Origin: an uncultured Gammaproteobacteria bacterium
GTDB taxonomy: Bacteria; Pseudomonadota; Gammaproteobacteria; CAMYKB01
DNA: 64,000 nucleotides
Direction: 5' to 3'
NCBI GenBank assembly: GCA_947258875.1
Contig: CAMYKB010000001.1
Coordinates: forward strand, 967-64,966
Shown here: positions 4,755-40,256 of the stretch, one piece after another
Position numbering within the stretch: the stretch's first letter is position 1
How the letters are laid out: each line of letters opens with the position of its first letter
Notes under the pieces: generated by a model
Told to the model about the DNA's origin: nothing
Seen by the model: only the letters and a program-made list of their open reading frames with translations
Database searches by the model: none
Position numbers and translations under genes: made by a program

Positions 4755-4891
4755 TTGCCCTCCGCATAGCGTGTTAAGCGTTCAGGATGCAGGGGGAGAA
4801 ATGCGACAGAAATATGCTGTGAGATAAATATTCAACAGCCAGGGATAACAATCTGCCACAGGATCGCCCGCCGCAATCCGCGTCAATCACA

Positions 4892-5088
4892 CAACAGGCC
4901 GGTCTCCGGGCTTATGGGCTGCGCTGATACTCAGCACTTAGCAAATCACCTTCCCACGTTTTCACGCAGTGGCATATTGATAAGCATTTTCCCAATTACC
5001 GTTGCGGGGGCAGCGCCGGATTCGCATATAGCATGGCTCACCGGCTTCCCGTTTAACCCCTGTGAAGAACCACCAGGGGAACCTGTTG
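4892..5088 (-). promoter_or_regulatory. Cobalamin (B12/AdoCbl) riboswitch
   Basis: On the minus strand the leader of the receptor gene contains the conserved B12 box AAGCCCGGAGACCGGCC at about 4897-4913. Upstream are GCCACTGCGTGAAAACGTGG and the core segment with GCGAATCCGGCGCTGCCCC. The closing stem is CAACAGG (5082-5088) with CCTGTTG (4892-4898). These are the diagnostic pieces of the class I cobalamin riboswitch in the correct order. It should repress btuB and pduO when adenosylcobalamin is plentiful. Confidence 0.95.
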
Positions 5089-5264
5089 CAGTCTACAGGC
5101 CTTGCCTGATAAATTAGCAAAACCGCGCGAAATCATAACGCAATAAATCCGACATGTAAAAAATATCTCTAAGATGCACCACTTATAGTAATCTACATAC
5201 TGAGCATGACGGAGCTACATGCACATGGGTGCAAAAGCCATCGTTGCATAGTGGACATTAACGC

Positions 5265-32036: not shown

Positions 32037-33110
32037 TTAGAAACGGATATGGGTTGAGGAATTCAGACTACGACGAGCACCACGCCAGTTATCGATGTGG
32101 TACTTGGTAAACGGCAGCCCGGTCAACTCAAAGAAACGCGGCCAGCCGATACGCTCGATCCAGTCGTTGATACGTTCCCAGTCCTTCGCGTCTTCCTTGT
32201 ATGCCTTCAGGATCTGCTTCACGACAGCAGTGGCCTCGGGCCAGCGCGGCGGATTGTTGGGGATGCCAGCGGCAACCAGCTTCTGGAAGGTTGGCTTGCC
32301 ACGCGCGTTGGAGTGGTTACCGCCAACCCATACAGCCAGCTTGGTATGCTCGGCGTCGTTGATCTGCATCGGCGGGCATGGCGGAAAGCAGGCGCCGCAG
32401 CAAATGCATTTTTTCTCATCAACTTCCAGAGAAGGCTTACCATTAACCAGTGCCGGACGAATCGCAGCCACCGGGCAGCGTGCTACCACGGAAGGACGTT
32501 CACATACATTGGACACCAGGTCATGATTGATCTTGGGCGGCTTGGTGTGCTGCACGTTAATAGCGATATCACCCTGCCCACCGCAGTTAATCTGGCAGCA
32601 TGAGGTGGTCATGTGTACACGATTAGGCATATTCCAGCCCTTAAACTCGTCGATCAGCTCATCCATCATTGCCTTCACCACGCCGGAGGCATCGGTGCCC
32701 GGGATGTCGCAGTGCAGCCAGCCCTGGGTGTGGGAGATCATGGTGACTGAGTTTTTGGTACCGCCGATGACGAAACCTTCAGCTTCCAGCGCCTTGATCA
32801 GCGGCTCGACTTTAGCCTCGCTGTCCACCATATACTCGATGTTGGAGCGTAAGGTGAAACGAATATAGCCATCACCGTGGGTATCGCCGATCTCACACAG
32901 CTTACGCAGCGTGAATACGTCAAGGATACGCTGGGTCCCGGCGCGCACGGTGTAGATCGCATCGCCACCACGGGCCACATGCTTCAAAACACCCGGGCGA
33001 GGATCTTCGTGATAGGCCCAATCGCCATAGTTCTTACGCATCACGGGATGCATATACTGGAAGCCGTCCGGGCAACCGGATTCAATAGGGGAACGATGTT
33101 CCTGTGCCAT
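32037..33110 (-). CDS. dsrB: DsrB, beta subunit of reverse dissimilatory sulfite reductase
   Basis: This 357-residue cytoplasmic subunit holds siroheme and [4Fe-4S] clusters. TTSCCQINCGGQGDIAI (about 165-181) and the following CERPSVVARCPVAAI carry siroheme/cluster-ligating cysteines. KKCICCGACFPPCPPMQI is a ferredoxin-type cluster inserted in the C-terminal half. With DsrA it oxidises DsrC-bound sulfur to sulfite, running in the oxidative direction. It lies 81 bases after dsrA. Confidence 0.98.
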   Translation of the reverse strand: MAQEHRSPIESGCPDGFQYMHPVMRKNYGDWAYHEDPRPGVLKHVARGGDAIYTVRAGTQRILDVFTLRKLCEIGDTHGDGYIRFTLRSNIEYMVDSEAKVEPLIKALEAEGFVIGGTKNSVTMISHTQGWLHCDIPGTDASGVVKAMMDELIDEFKGWNMPNRVHMTTSCCQINCGGQGDIAINVQHTKPPKINHDLVSNVCERPSVVARCPVAAIRPALVNGKPSLEVDEKKCICCGACFPPCPPMQINDAEHTKLAVWVGGNHSNARGKPTFQKLVAAGIPNNPPRWPEATAVVKQILKAYKEDAKDWERINDWIERIGWPRFFELTGLPFTKYHIDNWRGARRSLNSSTHIRF

Positions 33111-33191: not shown

Positions 33192-34460
33192 TCAGCCTGC
33201 TGCGGCCTGTTTTCCTTCAGCCTTACTCTCAAACCACTTAATGGCTTCGTCATCCCAGCCGTCCATACGAACGTAGGAACTCTGACGTGGCTCATTGACC
33301 ATATTCGGATCAACATCAACACCGATGCCTTCCAGGAAGTTGACCAGGCCGATACGCTCGATCATCTCACCACAGCGCTCGTGCTCCAAGCCGTTCTCGG
33401 CCCAGAAGTCGATGGTCTCTTCGGCGAGCTCGACCAGACGCTCGTAATCTTCCTCCGTGTCCAGCTTTATGAACGGCATGATCACGGTACCCATCAGATC
33501 GCCGATCTTCAGGGTGCGCTTGCCACCCATAAGGATGGTGGCGCCTTTGTCGTCACCCGGGCTCAATGCTTTGTTCATGACATTCAGACAGTGCATGCAA
33601 CGCACGCAGTTGCGGTTATCAACATTGAGGGTGTCATCATCATTCAATGCTAACGCCTGGGTGGGACACATATTGATGACGTATTCGGTGATGTATTCGC
33701 GGCCTTTTTTGGCAACGTATTTCTTGACCTCTTCCTGATCGACCTTCATGTCGTCACGCCAGGTGCCAATGATGGCGAAGTCGGAACGCTCGATGGCGTT
33801 CATGCAGTCGTTGCCGCAACCGGAAACCTTGAACTTGAACTTGTAAGGTAGCGCCGGGCGATGCACATCATCGGTAAAGTTATTCAGCATAACGCGATGC
33901 AACTTCATCTCATCCAGGCTGGATTGTTCGCAACGTGCCGCACCTACGCAGGACATTCCGGTACGCACACAGGGGCCAGCGCCACCGAGGTCCCAGCCGT
34001 ATTCATTGACTTCATCGAAGAAATGCTGGGTACCATCAGTAGTAGTACCGATAAACATGATATTGCCGGTCTGACCGTGGAAGGTTACCAGGCCGGAACC
34101 GTGTTTTTCCCAGCTATCACCCAGCTGACGCAACATGTCAGTGGTATAGTAATTACCTGCAGGCGGCTGTACGCGCAGGGTGTGGAATTCGCGCGACTCG
34201 GGGAACTCATCACCGACTTCAGAAAAGCGCGGGATGATGCCACTACCATAACCGAAGACACTGACGGTACCGCCTTTCCAGTATCCCTTACGGGTTTCGT
34301 AGGAGTGCTCAAGCTGGCCCAATAACGAGTTAGCCATATTATTAATGCGCTCGTCAGGATGCTCGTCTCTTAGACGCTTAAAACCTGAAATGAAACTCGG
34401 CCACGGGCCGTTTTCCAGATCATCAAGCATTGGAGTATCGTAATGTTGCTTTTTAGCCAT
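33192..34460 (-). CDS. dsrA: DsrA, alpha subunit of reverse dissimilatory sulfite reductase
   Basis: This 422-residue protein is the first gene of the operon and has an AAGGAGATT ribosome-binding site. SCVGAARCEQSS and SGCGNDCMNAIERSD form the siroheme/[4Fe-4S] cysteine set. CPTQALALND and NCVRCMHCLNVMNKAL form the ferredoxin domain. The oxidative (rDsr) assignment rests on the accompanying dsrL, dsrEFH and dsrN and on the absence of dsrD in view. The promoter must lie in 34461-35018, which it shares with the divergent TauD-like gene. Confidence 0.98.
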   Translation of the reverse strand: MAKKQHYDTPMLDDLENGPWPSFISGFKRLRDEHPDERINNMANSLLGQLEHSYETRKGYWKGGTVSVFGYGSGIIPRFSEVGDEFPESREFHTLRVQPPAGNYYTTDMLRQLGDSWEKHGSGLVTFHGQTGNIMFIGTTTDGTQHFFDEVNEYGWDLGGAGPCVRTGMSCVGAARCEQSSLDEMKLHRVMLNNFTDDVHRPALPYKFKFKVSGCGNDCMNAIERSDFAIIGTWRDDMKVDQEEVKKYVAKKGREYITEYVINMCPTQALALNDDDTLNVDNRNCVRCMHCLNVMNKALSPGDDKGATILMGGKRTLKIGDLMGTVIMPFIKLDTEEDYERLVELAEETIDFWAENGLEHERCGEMIERIGLVNFLEGIGVDVDPNMVNEPRQSSYVRMDGWDDEAIKWFESKAEGKQAAAG

Positions 34461-34660: not shown

Positions 34661-34676
34661 TATCCCCAAGGGGATA
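34661..34676. promoter_or_regulatory. TATCCCC-AA-GGGGATA dyad
   Basis: A perfect 7-base inverted repeat with a two-base spacer lies about 200 bases upstream of the dsrA start. It has the form of an operator for a dimeric regulator. No regulator is identified. Confidence 0.4.
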
Positions 34677-34775: not shown

Positions 34776-35018
34776 TTCTTCAAAAAAAACAATTCGTTAC
34801 AAAAATAGCCGCCGCCTCGGGCAATGCTTGTATTTGTGAACGACATAACAGCGGTATTAGAACCCGATAGGAGATTGTATGCAACTGCTCAGACCCTTGC
34901 CTTGGGGATAGACACTTCATCACTGTGGTGTACTAAAATTACCCTGCTGCATTACCTACCGGTTACGCACTACCCGATTGAATACCGAGATCCCCAATTG
35001 GCACAAGCAACAGCACAC

Positions 35019-35975
35019 ATGAACACTCGTTCAAAGCCAGCAACGGTCAACCCGTTTGAGCTAACGAATGAACTGGGCTACCAGGCATGGCGCGAACGCA
35101 AGCTCGATCGCTATTTGCGAACAGTGAACGAACTCCCCACCCCTATACTGAATCCCTTTAATATCAGCCACTTAGAGAGAGATTCATTGATTCGTCGCTG
35201 CCGTGACACCAACATGGCCATTTATCAGCTAAAGACTGAGATGACGGGAGAAGACCCCACTGACAAGCGCTTCATGCGCGTCCTGGGCACACAATTGGGC
35301 CTGCAGCGCCTGGACGACAACCTGTGCGCCGATAATGACAGCATTACCTCACTACAAGTGATGCAGGGCGGGCGCCACGAGGGCTACATCCCCTACAGCA
35401 ACAAGCGCCTTAACTGGCATACCGATGGCTATTATAATGAGGACGATCAATGCATCCGGGCATTTTTGATTCATTGCGTCAGAAATGCCTCTCAAGGCGG
35501 CGAGAATAGCCTGCTCGACCATGAAATGGCCTATTTATTAATGCGTGATGAAAACCCGGCCTGGGTCGAGGCCTTCATGCGACCCGATGCCATGACTATT
35601 CCGGCCAATATCGAAAACGGTGTGGAAATCCGGCCAACCAAGCACGGCCCTGTATTTTCACTTGATTCTGTGACAGGCAGCCTCCATATGCGGTATACAG
35701 CGCGCACGCGCAATATCATCTGGAAACAGGAACGTGACACTCAGGCAGCGGTAGCTTTTATGCGGGAATTGCTCTCGGACACATCGCCCTATATCGTTAC
35801 GCACCGGCTGCAACCCGGACAAGGCCTGATTTGCAATAACGTCCTGCATAGCCGTAGCGCTTTCACCGACATAGACGGGCCTGACCAGCAGCGTCTGTTG
35901 TACCGGGCGCGTTATTATGACCGAATTGTCGGTACCGGGTTAAACGAAGTGGCGCAAGCCCATGAGGAACATTAA
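35019..35975 (+). CDS. TauD/TfdA-like Fe(II)/2OG dioxygenase divergent from dsr
   Basis: I read 318 residues from the ATG of MNTRSKPAT; upstream in-frame sequence lacks protein character. NWHTDGYY gives iron ligands His134 and Asp136. CNNVLHSRSAF gives His277, and RLLYRARYYD holds the 2OG-binding arginine near 296. LRTVNELPTPILNPFNIS and SNKRLNWHTDG fit the TauD/gamma-butyrobetaine hydroxylase group. TauD enzymes release sulfite from organosulfonates, which would fit a sulfur oxidiser. The substrate cannot be read from sequence. The next gene starts directly after its stop. Confidence 0.85.
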   Translation: MNTRSKPATVNPFELTNELGYQAWRERKLDRYLRTVNELPTPILNPFNISHLERDSLIRRCRDTNMAIYQLKTEMTGEDPTDKRFMRVLGTQLGLQRLDDNLCADNDSITSLQVMQGGRHEGYIPYSNKRLNWHTDGYYNEDDQCIRAFLIHCVRNASQGGENSLLDHEMAYLLMRDENPAWVEAFMRPDAMTIPANIENGVEIRPTKHGPVFSLDSVTGSLHMRYTARTRNIIWKQERDTQAAVAFMRELLSDTSPYIVTHRLQPGQGLICNNVLHSRSAFTDIDGPDQQRLLYRARYYDRIVGTGLNEVAQAHEEH

Positions 35976-36167
35976 ATGTTGTGGCTCAGTGAAGTGCTCC
36001 TGCAGCACCGCGAGGTTGAAAATTTTGAAGACCTCAAAAACGTTATCCAACAGCGTGCGCTGCAAGGGGAAATGTTTTTCAGAATGGATGTACGTCCGCC
36101 CTACGCTGATACCCCGGAGAATTGGGAAGACCTGCTGGAAGCCGCCTTCACATCGGCGCGCAACTAA
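35976..36167 (+). CDS. Small 63-aa protein of the TauD/Cas6-like operon
   Basis: I do not recognise this family. The ATG follows the dioxygenase stop without any gap, which strongly suggests translational coupling. The protein is soluble: MLWLSEVLLQHREVENFEDL, then RALQGEMFFRMDVRPPYADT and NWEDLLEAAF. The conserved-looking tryptophan and proline pattern and the tight coupling suggest a real gene rather than a chance frame. Confidence 0.7.
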   Translation: MLWLSEVLLQHREVENFEDLKNVIQQRALQGEMFFRMDVRPPYADTPENWEDLLEAAFTSARN

Positions 36168-36204
36168 CTTACGTCATCAATCAAGGCAACATCATTAAAG
36201 CATC

Positions 36205-36894
36205 ATGAGTACATTCTGGCAGGAAGAATCTGAAGAAACCGATGTCTACACCGTTCCGGACGACATCGTGGATCTATTGTTCAAGGTCTCCTGCCGCAGT
36301 CTGCCACTGGAGCATGCTTACGCCTTGTCCACGGCATTGCATAACGTCCTGCCCTGGCTAGCAGACGAACCACGCGCCGGCGTGCACCTTATCCACGGCG
36401 CTGAATCCGGTAATGGCTGGATTCGCCCCGAGGCCCCTGATGAACTGATGTACCTGTCACGGCGCGCCCGACTGACATTACGCCTACCCAAACAACGTAT
36501 AGATGATGCCCGTCTATTGGACGGCAAAACACTGGATATCGCCGGTAATGTGCTCGGCCTGAGCGACCCCAATGTACGGCCCCTCAGCAACCTGACAACC
36601 ATTTTTACCCGTTACCTCGTTTCGGAGCACGCGGAAAACGATGAGGACTTTCTCTCGCATGCGATGGAGCTACTCCAGGAGAAACGCATACGTGTAAAGA
36701 AAATGATGAGCGGACGAATCCACACAATCACATTACCAGAAGGTAGAATAACCGCCCGCAGCCTGATGCTCGATGGCATGACCACCGAGGAATCGGTGTT
36801 ACTGCAGCAGGAGGGCCTGGGCGAAGGTCGCCGTATCGGTTGCGGCCTATTCCTACCGCATAAAGGCATTGCCCCGGTTAAATCACCAAGCTAA
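36205..36894 (+). CDS. Orphan Cas6/Cmx6-like RAMP-fold protein
   Basis: This 229-residue soluble protein matches my recollection of the type I-MYXAN Cas6/Cmx6 family. FKVSCRSLPLEHAYALSTAL (about 26-45) has the His37/Tyr39 region where this family keeps its conserved histidine. Also present are LLDGKTLDIAGNVLGLSD, VRPLSNLTTIFTRYLV, and the closing EESVLLQQEGLGEGRRIGCG. The last holds the glycine-rich loop (about 204-214) of RAMP RNA-binding proteins. Cas6 cuts CRISPR precursor RNA. Here I see no repeat array and no other cas gene in 64 kb. Instead it is encoded between a sulfonate-dioxygenase-like gene and a DsrC paralogue. It may be a repurposed RNA-binding protein; the family call is by eye. 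Confidence 0.75.
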   Translation: MSTFWQEESEETDVYTVPDDIVDLLFKVSCRSLPLEHAYALSTALHNVLPWLADEPRAGVHLIHGAESGNGWIRPEAPDELMYLSRRARLTLRLPKQRIDDARLLDGKTLDIAGNVLGLSDPNVRPLSNLTTIFTRYLVSEHAENDEDFLSHAMELLQEKRIRVKKMMSGRIHTITLPEGRITARSLMLDGMTTEESVLLQQEGLGEGRRIGCGLFLPHKGIAPVKSPS

Positions 36895-37003
36895 CCATCA
36901 TAGGATTAACCGGCATAGATTTTAATTTGGATGAAACAATCGTCATCCTATTTTTTTACAACCTTACCACTAATATGCAACTTATTTAGTTTAAGGAGTT
37001 AAC

Positions 37004-37342
37004 ATGGCACTAGAAGTTGACGGCAAAACCATTGAAACCAATCCAATGGGCTACCTGGAAAATGCGCAGGACTGGAGCGAGAAGGTCGCCGAGGTCATCG
37101 CCGAAAAAGAAGACCTCACCCTGACTGACAAGCATTGGGATCTGATCAATTACCTGCGTGATGAATTCCTCAACAACGGAGAAAACCAACCCAATACCCG
37201 CACCATGGTCAAAGATATGGGCAAGAAATGGAACGAGAAAATCAACGCCAAAAGCCTTTACGATCTGTTTCCGGGCGATCCCAGCAAGCAGGGTGGCCGT
37301 ATTGCAGGTCTACCGGAAAGCCGTCGCAAGGGTGGCTATTGA
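37004..37342 (+). CDS. Cysteine-less DsrC homologue (RspA type)
   Basis: This 112-residue protein begins MALEVDGKTIETNPMGYLEN and is clearly a DsrC/TusE homologue over its whole length. The C-terminal arm, GRIAGLPESRRKGGY, has lost both functional cysteines, and the protein has none elsewhere. DsrC-family members lacking both cysteines have been called RspA and proposed to be regulatory rather than sulfur-carrying. It has a strong ribosome-binding site (AAGGAG) and its own leader. The nearby Cas6-like gene makes a regulatory role worth considering. Confidence 0.92.
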   Translation: MALEVDGKTIETNPMGYLENAQDWSEKVAEVIAEKEDLTLTDKHWDLINYLRDEFLNNGENQPNTRTMVKDMGKKWNEKINAKSLYDLFPGDPSKQGGRIAGLPESRRKGGY

Positions 37343-37470: not shown

Positions 37471-37674
37471 ATGAGTGACAAGCAAGCAAAAATCAAAAAA
37501 ATGCTGGAAATGCAGCATAAATTTATTGAACGTGAACACGCTGGTGGCGTGCTCATGGAAGAATATTTCACCCCCAGCGACGACAGCCCACTCAAAGGCT
37601 ATCGAGATGAATACAGGGATCTGGCTATGGGCGTGGTAGGTGATGCTCATAAAGAAAGGGGTTCGCAAGAGTAA
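37471..37674 (+). CDS. Small charged protein (67 aa) ending the DsrC-like operon
   Basis: No family recognised. The 67-residue protein is very charged and helical: KIKKMLEMQHKFIEREHAGG, then VLMEEYFTPSDDSPLKGY. GAGAGGA lies about nine bases upstream of the ATG and a strong terminator follows. It is probably expressed with the cysteine-less DsrC paralogue. Confidence 0.75.
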   Translation: MSDKQAKIKKMLEMQHKFIEREHAGGVLMEEYFTPSDDSPLKGYRDEYRDLAMGVVGDAHKERGSQE

Positions 37675-37738: not shown

Positions 37739-37921
37739 GTATCGGTACGCCCCTGATGCCATCTAAGATAGCCCGTTTATGATGCAAAAATACACGATTT
37801 GCCTCAATAATCCATAAAACCCCCCGTTTGTGGGCGCCATCCGCCACGTAGTATACTTACCCCCTCTATCTGCTGAAATTTCAAAGGCCACCAGCGGCCC
37901 GCCTGGGTGCCCGAGTCACTT

Positions 37922-39601
37922 ATGACCGCTAAATCAGAAAACGACCAGGCCTATCACTCACAAGATGTGCTTGCCAAGCTCATCTCCGGCGCACTTAAGG
38001 GTAAACCTGCCGCAAGCGGTCTGGCACGTTACCGGTTGATATTATTGTTGCTGGGAACCGCTGCGGCATTCATTGTTGCAACCGGCCTCGACCTCTTTAT
38101 CATCACGCCCGACACACCCACGCTGCTGATGCTGCGTAACGCGCTGCTGCTCACCGGCCTCGGCATGCTGGCATGGGCCATTTGGATAACCTGGCATGAC
38201 TACATACAGCCTGTTATGCACTTGCGTGAATGGGTGTTACACATGCGTGGCGGCAATCTCTCCGCGCGCATACCCGAACCCCGACATGGAGAATTCACAG
38301 ACCTTTCCAGTGACCTGAATTCACTGGGGGAAATGCTGTGGTCTCTATCGCGTGATACCGAACAGCAACTACAAAACTACACCGAGCATACGGCACAGAA
38401 AACTCGCTCTCTCACCATCCTCTACGACGTCGCCGCAAGTATCAATGTCTCACGCGATCTCAACGATTTGCTAACACGCTTTCTGCACACACTCACCGAA
38501 GTGGTAGGCGCGCGTGCAGCAGCAGTACGACTGGTAGCCCATGACGGGCAGATGCATCTTGTTGCAAGCACAGGTCTCAACAAGGACATTATTAAAAAGG
38601 AACGCGTACTGCCTGCTGAAAGCTGTCTCTGCGGAAAAATCGATACGACTGAAGGCGTATTGTTCCAGGAGGGCATGCTCCCCTGCGCACGCCGCGCCGG
38701 GCACAATTTTTTTGATGGCGAAGACCTGTCCATGATCGTGGTACCGCTACAGTATCGCGGCAAAACACTCGGCGTCTACAACCTGTTCGTCGATCAGGAA
38801 ACATTTGAGCAGCGCGAAGACCTGAGCGAATTATTCACCAGTATCGGCCGCCACCTGGGTATGGCTATAGACAAGGCCCGACTGGACGAAGAAACCACCC
38901 GCCTGTCGATCGTTGAAGAGCGCACTCGTCTTGCTCATGAACTTCATGACTCGCTGGCGCAGACCATAGCCAGTATCCGTTTTCAGGTCCGTGTGCTGGA
39001 TGAAACCCTGCATCATGATGGCGATGAGGCTACAGTGTGGCAGGAACTCGAGAAAATCGAAAACACTATTGATGAAGCCAATACCGAGTTGCGTGAATTG
39101 ATCGCGCATTTCCGCGCGCCGGTCGATAAACGTGGATTGATTCCCTCAGTTGAACAAACCGTAGAACGTTTCCGCCTGGAGTCCGGAGGCACCCTTATCT
39201 TCCTGCAAAACGAATGGCCCGAAAAACCACTGCCACCTGAATATGAAATCCAGGTACTGCGGATTATCCAGGAATCACTGGCAAACGCTCGCAAGCACGG
39301 CACAGCCGATACAGTTCGCATCCTGCTACGCGGTAATGAACAGGGACATTACAAGGTAATGGTAGAGGATGACGGCGTGGGCCTGGGTGATCGTGTACAA
39401 TCAGGCGCGCCTGGTGAACATGTCGGCCTGAGCATTATGCAGGACCGCGCGCGGCGCATTGATGGTAAGCTACGCATAGAAAGTGAACCCGGCGAGGGTG
39501 TGCGCGTTATCCTGACGTTCGAACACCCCGATAACAACACCAACCAAGATACAATTTTTTTTGCTGACACAGTCAATGAATCTACGCGTATTAGTCATTG
39601 A
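37922..39601 (+). CDS. NarX-type sensor histidine kinase
   Basis: I choose the ATG of MTAKSEND (559 residues); a GTG five codons upstream is also possible. Two membrane segments (about 45-65 and 75-95) lie close together, without the large periplasmic nitrate-binding domain of NarX. A HAMP domain (about 105-155), a GAF domain with cysteines in AESCLCGK and MLPCARRAG, a HisKA_3 domain (phospho-accepting His in AHELHDSLAQ, about 341) and an HATPase domain (VEDDGVGLG) follow. The missing sensor loop and GAF cysteines suggest it senses a cytoplasmic redox or metal signal rather than external nitrate. It overlaps the regulator gene by 26 bases. Confidence 0.92.
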   Translation: MTAKSENDQAYHSQDVLAKLISGALKGKPAASGLARYRLILLLLGTAAAFIVATGLDLFIITPDTPTLLMLRNALLLTGLGMLAWAIWITWHDYIQPVMHLREWVLHMRGGNLSARIPEPRHGEFTDLSSDLNSLGEMLWSLSRDTEQQLQNYTEHTAQKTRSLTILYDVAASINVSRDLNDLLTRFLHTLTEVVGARAAAVRLVAHDGQMHLVASTGLNKDIIKKERVLPAESCLCGKIDTTEGVLFQEGMLPCARRAGHNFFDGEDLSMIVVPLQYRGKTLGVYNLFVDQETFEQREDLSELFTSIGRHLGMAIDKARLDEETTRLSIVEERTRLAHELHDSLAQTIASIRFQVRVLDETLHHDGDEATVWQELEKIENTIDEANTELRELIAHFRAPVDKRGLIPSVEQTVERFRLESGGTLIFLQNEWPEKPLPPEYEIQVLRIIQESLANARKHGTADTVRILLRGNEQGHYKVMVEDDGVGLGDRVQSGAPGEHVGLSIMQDRARRIDGKLRIESEPGEGVRVILTFEHPDNNTNQDTIFFADTVNESTRISH

Positions 39602-40256
39602 TGACCACACACTATTCCGTGAGGGCCTGCAAGGTTTGCTGGCACGGCACGGTATTGAGGTTGTCGGCTCCCTGGGCGATGGCCATGAAGGCATCCGTCT
39701 GGCGCACCAACTGAAACCTGATATATTACTACTCGACATGCGCATGCCGGGTATCGATGGCCTCTCCATCTTGCGCCAGTTACAGCAAGAGAATTTCGAG
39801 AACCCTATCGTCATGCTGACCACCAGCAGCGATGAACGTGACCTGGTAGAAGCACTGCGCAGCGGCGCCAAAGGCTATCTGCTAAAAGATATGGAACCCG
39901 ATGATCTGGTGGTCGCGCTGCGAGAAATCGTCTCCGGTAAGACCGTCGTCGCACCCAACCTGACACAGATCCTGGCGCGCGTTGTAACGGGTGACACGCC
40001 GCCTGAACCCAAGCCCCAGCCCAGTTTGATTGATGATCTTACGCCGCGCGAGTCGGAAATCCTCAGCCTGCTCGCAGAAGGCCAAAGCAACAAGGTCATC
40101 GCGCGCAACCTCGGTATCTCCGATGGCACTGTCAAACTGCATGTGAAAGCGATCCTTCGCAAACTCGGTATTCATTCGCGCGTTGAGGCCGCAGTCATAG
40201 CCGTTGAACACGGCCTGCGAGCCAACAGGGAACTTGCGGCCCGGGGCGAAGATTAA
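39576..40256 (+). CDS. NarL/LuxR-type response regulator
   Basis: I choose the ATG of MNLRVLVID (226 residues). The receiver domain has acidic residues 9-10, phospho-accepting Asp54 in LLLDMRMPG and Lys in GYLLKDM (about 104). A C-terminal LuxR-type helix-turn-helix follows (LTPRESEILSLLAEGQSNKVIA, about 147-168, then VKLHVKAILRKLG). It forms an operon with the NarX-like kinase. Its targets are unknown; it is the only transcription regulator of this kind near dsr. Confidence 0.95.
   Translation: MNLRVLVIDDHTLFREGLQGLLARHGIEVVGSLGDGHEGIRLAHQLKPDILLLDMRMPGIDGLSILRQLQQENFENPIVMLTTSSDERDLVEALRSGAKGYLLKDMEPDDLVVALREIVSGKTVVAPNLTQILARVVTGDTPPEPKPQPSLIDDLTPRESEILSLLAEGQSNKVIARNLGISDGTVKLHVKAILRKLGIHSRVEAAVIAVEHGLRANRELAARGED

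Follow-up and report, generated by a model that had tools for sequence, protein, structure and literature searches.

We report that a protein of the Cas6/Cmx6 family is encoded beside the reverse dissimilatory sulfite reductase (dsr) genes of gammaproteobacterial sulfur oxidisers, where it makes up a distinct, conserved family. The gene lies at 36205-36894 on the plus strand of the stretch of DNA analysed here (64 kb from an uncultured gammaproteobacterium, hereafter the window) and encodes 229 residues. The product is a genuine Cas6/Cmx6-family protein, but it is a Cas6 by family and not by system. The reading that we favour, with moderate confidence, is that of a domesticated, CRISPR-free Cas6 that is kept as a member of the reverse-Dsr regulon and probably binds or cleaves RNA.

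The original prediction had assigned the protein to Cas6/Cmx6, noting LEHAYAL with a histidine at residue 37 and GLGEGRRIGCG close to the C-terminus. Both motifs are read in the 229-residue ORF, and the family was borne out by profile searches and by the predicted fold. The product matched Pfam PF09559 (Cas6) with an E value of 1.7e-59 and 201.4 bits against a cut-off of 26.7, NCBIfam TIGR02807 (cas6_cmx6) with an E value of 2.4e-38 and 132.1 bits against a curated cut-off of 98.85, and PADLOC Cas6 with an E value of 5.8e-58, six PADLOC Cas6 models being matched; the profile search did not point to an unrelated family. The AlphaFold2 model, based on 31 aligned sequences (pLDDT 90.5, pTM 0.85), adopts the tandem ferredoxin-like fold of Cas6. 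In a Foldseek search of the PDB, the top match was 8fcj_B (E 7e-16, TM 0.77), followed by other Cas6 structures, and a sequence profile search of the PDB returned the 8fcj chain again. This protein, the Cas6 of a type I-B CRISPR-associated transposon, is the closest solved one in both sequence and fold. It differs from the window protein in being part of Cascade-TniQ, in having Asn at the position of His37, and in lacking the SxNGWxRP motif described below.

The predicted active site is strongly conserved. His37, the predicted catalytic residue in helix 1, is kept in 110 of 111 aligned Cas6 copies, the sole exception being copy L057 with Asn instead, and it is present in all 5 cyanobacterial Cmx6 proteins compared. 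Residues Arg87, Arg93, Arg136, Trp72, Gly170, and Gly214, the last of which ends the glycine-rich loop (residues 204-214), are invariant (111/111). The copies share 37-56% sequence identity with the window protein, and close pairs gave dN/dS values of 0.03-0.21, indicating purifying selection. Type I-MYXAN Cas6/Cmx6 proteins (e.g., that of Gloeothece pP742402) belong to the same NCBIfam equivalog and share the fold core, the helix-1 His, Arg93, and the GxGxxRxxGCG loop. However, the I-MYXAN copies are found in cas6-cas3-cas8-cas7-cas5-cas1-cas2 operons with arrays, the repeats of which carry a GATGCC-N4-GGCGTT stem, whereas the dsr copies have neither cas neighbours nor arrays. The dsr copies also carry an SxNGWxRP insertion loop (in the gammaproteobacterial members) and a C-terminal PHKG motif, both absent from the five cyanobacterial proteins. 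They form a group separate from cyanobacterial Cmx6 with support of 100/99, in a tree with an arbitrary root and a small CRISPR sample, namely five proteins from cyanobacterial plasmids, among them one from Gloeobacter without annotated cas neighbours. For these three reasons the tree does not show the direction of recruitment, and we infer a move from CRISPR to dsr from the wider Cas6 family. The Gloeobacter gene, on a plasmid of Gloeobacter morelensis (L153), adjoins PAPS-reductase-family and cupin genes and is possibly another member in a non-CRISPR context. The earlier label of an orphan gene is correct in placing the window gene outside CRISPR but understates a conserved family of its own.

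Because the Cas6 fold, the helix-1 His, and the glycine-rich loop are all kept, the protein most likely binds, and probably cleaves, cellular RNA. An RNA-binding scaffold, in which Cas6 would bind RNA, or mainly partner proteins, without cutting and in which cleavage would be vestigial, is a less likely reading that still deserves weight. Certain Cas6 proteins of CRISPR systems retain the RNA that they have produced (PMC8616872), the L057 lineage has Asn at position 37, and the strong conservation of the dsr-specific SxNGWxRP loop and PHKG tail suggests new partner contacts. The near-universal conservation of His37, on the other hand, is hard to explain without catalysis.

The order of genes around cas6 is as first described, with a TauD-like gene and a coupled 63-residue protein ahead of it, a cysteine-less DsrC after it, and dsr on the opposite strand. 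The minus strand carries dsrA (33192-34460) and dsrB (32037-33110), encoding the alpha and beta subunits of a reverse-type dissimilatory sulfite reductase. On the plus strand, 35019-35975 encodes a 318-residue TauD-like Fe(II)/2-oxoglutarate dioxygenase (PF02668, E 1.2e-18; alternative in-frame upstream start at 34824). Its triad H134-x-D136...H277 is invariant in the alignment of copies, and its nearest folds are gamma-butyrobetaine hydroxylase and TmpA. The 63-residue protein (35976-36167, plus strand), which belongs to no known family, directly abuts tauD; across loci the median gap between the two genes is 7 bases. Where the genes are linked, the operon reads tauD, the 63-residue gene, an optional gene of approximately 235 codons with no clear Pfam family, and cas6, divergent from dsrAB, and the DsrC paralogue then starts approximately 90 bases after cas6. 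In the window this paralogue (37004-37342, plus strand; DsrC family, E 4e-33) has lost both sulfur-carrier cysteines, a loss that fits the RspA type, to which we take it to belong. Among the copies, 69 of 75 are without cysteine, and the protein ends in a conserved basic tail, RKGGY. Many of the loci continue downstream with a conserved 67-residue protein of no assigned family (s67; 37471-37674, plus strand). Approximately 100 bases upstream of this gene is a conserved half-palindrome, CCCATTGGGGATATAG, followed approximately 20 bases on by a -10-like CTATAGT (53 loci scanned).

The tauD/63-residue pair is conserved in gamma- and alphaproteobacterial dsr loci. In the alphaproteobacterial loci (L156-L159 and L172-L175) the pair is likewise divergent from dsrAB, and the place of Cas6 is taken by other genes. 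The pair is thus a more widespread, unexplained companion of dsr, to which Cas6 looks like a gamma/beta-specific addition. Of all pairs tested, the distances of cas6 correlated best with those of tauD (r 0.69; partial 0.64 given dsrA), which may reflect a shared rate as well as interaction. Such a correlation would suit a module that works through a sulfur-relay link on a stable RNA such as tRNA, with Cas6 presenting this RNA for modification or sensing by the dioxygenase and the DsrC/TusE-like protein. DsrEFH-DsrC has a homologue in the tRNA-thiolating system TusBCD-TusE, and the basic tail of the cysteine-less DsrC is conserved. We nevertheless regard this role as improbable. Having lost both carrier cysteines, the DsrC paralogue cannot pass sulfur itself; moreover, the enzymes closest in fold to the dioxygenase have small-molecule substrates, and Alphaproteobacteria keep tauD and the 63-residue gene without Cas6.

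A survey of the gene neighbourhood, as proposed with the original prediction, revealed a nearly exceptionless co-occurrence of Cas6 with dsr within the class. The class was sampled with one genome per family (94 genomes), a genuine dsrA being defined by an E value below 1e-90 and Cas6 by a TIGR02807 match. Cas6 was present in 32 of these genomes, always as a single copy, and reverse-type dsrA in 32; 30 genomes carry the two (Fisher p 7e-20). Four genomes break the pattern: two that have dsrA without Cas6 are incomplete (78% and 81%), and two that have Cas6 without dsrA are fragmented (500 and 430 contigs). A further sample, of 398 genomes from the phylum, contained six members of the class with dsrA; these were exactly the six with Cas6, and TIGR02807 had no match in the 33 dsrA genomes of other classes, six of which carry reverse-type operons. 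Linkage follows the same pattern. More than 500 relatives are present in GTDB genomes. Among the best 80 of these, 52 loci had enough upstream sequence, and dsrA was found at 48 and tauD with the 63-residue gene at 49; the cysteine-less DsrC gene (rspA) follows cas6 at 60 of 70 loci of the same set. Four divergent copies, called betaproteobacterial by inference and not from a taxonomy record, also lie beside dsrAB, the DsrC paralogue, and tauD. Three copies lie apart from dsrA (L032, L051, and L057); judging gene names by eye, an rRNA methyltransferase-like gene adjoins Cas6 in L032 and a YeeE-like transporter gene in L051. In L067 (Bacterium BMS3Bbin13), dsrE lies near the 63-residue and cas6 genes and dsrAB is apparently missing in between, by assembly collapse or by real loss. 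A profile search of alphaproteobacterial dsr loci with filters off found no diverged Cas6. Cas6 is not essential to reverse-Dsr chemistry, since the same pathway operates in Alphaproteobacteria, which lack the gene. Core machinery would be present in all reverse-Dsr lineages, which Cas6 is not; its co-occurrence and linkage mark it as a member of the reverse-Dsr regulon of Gammaproteobacteria.

The gene is independent of CRISPR genes. No spaced direct repeats occur in the 64-kb window, in agreement with the earlier claim that it holds no CRISPR repeats, and none of the fetched dsr loci contains a CRISPR array. Across the entire 3.01-Mb assembly, which is 98.5% complete, searches for Cas1, Cas3-HD, Cas7/DevR, Cse2 (PF09485), and a second Cas6-type protein (PF01881) found nothing, and the Csm1/Cas10 model gave only an 18-bit partial match, far under its 170-bit cut-off. 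Judged by its cas genes, the genome holds no complete I-MYXAN system that could use this Cas6, and from the missing genes we take it that no CRISPR array exists elsewhere in the genome. Viral contigs yielded no phage-borne copies of the gene. Across the 94 class genomes, Cas1 was found in 12 of 32 with Cas6 and in 19 of 62 without it (Fisher p 0.64). A Cas6 acting in trans on a CRISPR array elsewhere in the cell would fit the score above the equivalog cut-off of the CRISPR-associated cas6_cmx6 model, but it is already largely refuted and very improbable: the genome is without Cas1, Cas3, Cas7/DevR, and Cse2, 20 of the 32 Cas6-bearing genomes are without Cas1, with no association between the two, and the gene is linked to dsr and not to cas genes. 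Least probable of all, and already refuted by the data, is a neutral passenger or pseudogene left beside dsr by chance from an old CRISPR locus, since for all the divergence of the copies (37-56% identity to the window copy) their dN/dS values are low, they are full-length over approximately 32 families, and they keep invariant residues.

We searched the locus leaders and intergenic spacers for an RNA target, with coding sequences as controls and z < -2 as the threshold for structure. Hairpins in the dsrA-dsrB spacer exceeded the threshold in 44% of loci compared with 2-9% of coding controls, the signal being weak in the window. They were rejected as a Cas6 substrate, as they also occur in alphaproteobacterial operons without Cas6. 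The cas6-rspA and rspA-s67 spacers and the dsrA and tauD leaders showed no excess of structure over controls, and no Cas6-specific conserved RNA structure was found in the leaders and spacers of the locus. The only known RNA family matched in the window is a cobalamin riboswitch (4880-5101, minus strand, 118 bits). Thus, the original reading holds for the Cas6/Cmx6 family, the place outside CRISPR, and the co-occurrence with dsr, and the processing of dsr or sulfur-linked transcripts is a proposal that goes beyond these. As the leaders and spacers contain no Cas6-specific structure, the proposed RNA role and target rest on the retained active-site residues; genomic linkage alone does not prove a dsr-related target.

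A perfect palindrome, TATCCCCAAGGGGATA, lies between dsrA and tauD (34661-34676) and is a probable operator common to both promoters. The 16-bp consensus TATCCC-N4-GGGATA occurs between dsrA and tauD at 57 of 72 loci, approximately 200 bases upstream of dsrA. It is enriched in this spacer (61 sites per 33 kb compared with 7 per 310 kb of coding sequence), is specific to a spacer length of 4, and is absent from Cas6-bearing loci of the betaproteobacterial type and from alphaproteobacterial loci. As an RNA hairpin for Cas6 the palindrome was rejected: its two half-sites vary independently of each other (Fisher p 0.3-1.0), those Cas6-bearing betaproteobacterial-type loci lack it, and the CRISPR repeats of Cmx6 have a different stem. 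The independent variation of the half-sites reads as that of a DNA operator, and TATCCC-N4-GGGATA probably serves a putative dsr regulator. Domain matches identify a NarX-like sensor histidine kinase (GAF, HisKA_3, HATPase) at 37907-39601 and a NarL/LuxR-type response regulator, a candidate for palindrome binding, at 39561-40256, both on the plus strand. NarL sites have a 7-2-7 layout. Since the palindrome has this layout, the NarL-like protein is a candidate dsr regulator, and the adjacent NarX/NarL-like pair perhaps serves the palindrome, as far as sequence can tell.

In the domesticated Cas6 that we favour, the protein would bind and probably cleave a cellular RNA. Encoded in an operon with tauD and the 63-residue gene and beside a cysteine-less DsrC, it would tune the expression or processing of RNAs needed during sulfur oxidation. 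More tentatively, and with distinctly less confidence, Cas6, the 2-oxoglutarate dioxygenase, its 63-residue partner, and the cysteine-less DsrC might together form an RNA-level control device by which reverse-Dsr expression is set in response to the sulfur or redox state; a CRISPR-derived endoribonuclease would then have been recruited permanently to metabolism. That Cas proteins can take part in gene regulation without canonical interference has a precedent in DevTRS of Myxococcus xanthus (PMC8616872). DevTRS differs in lying inside a full I-C cas locus, and Cas6 activity is reported not to be required there.

A literature search, mostly outside subscription journals, found no published description of a Cas6 linked to dsr and no report of Cas6 linkage for RspA-type DsrC paralogues. 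To our knowledge, Cas6 is an RNA-cutting protein otherwise found only in CRISPR immune systems. In most of the sulfur-oxidising gammaproteobacteria sampled here, also where the genome has no CRISPR genes, it is a fixed, near-obligate companion of the sulfur-oxidation locus. Automatic annotation labels the family as type I-MYXAN CRISPR, so that surveys of CRISPR are misled and a sulfur gene is concealed. The pattern suggests that running or controlling sulfur oxidation involves an RNA-level step that is as yet unstudied. If this Cas6 acts on RNA, it would represent a Cas nuclease that has been exapted, and fixed, in central energy metabolism, and it would give access to an unexplored layer of post-transcriptional control of reverse Dsr.
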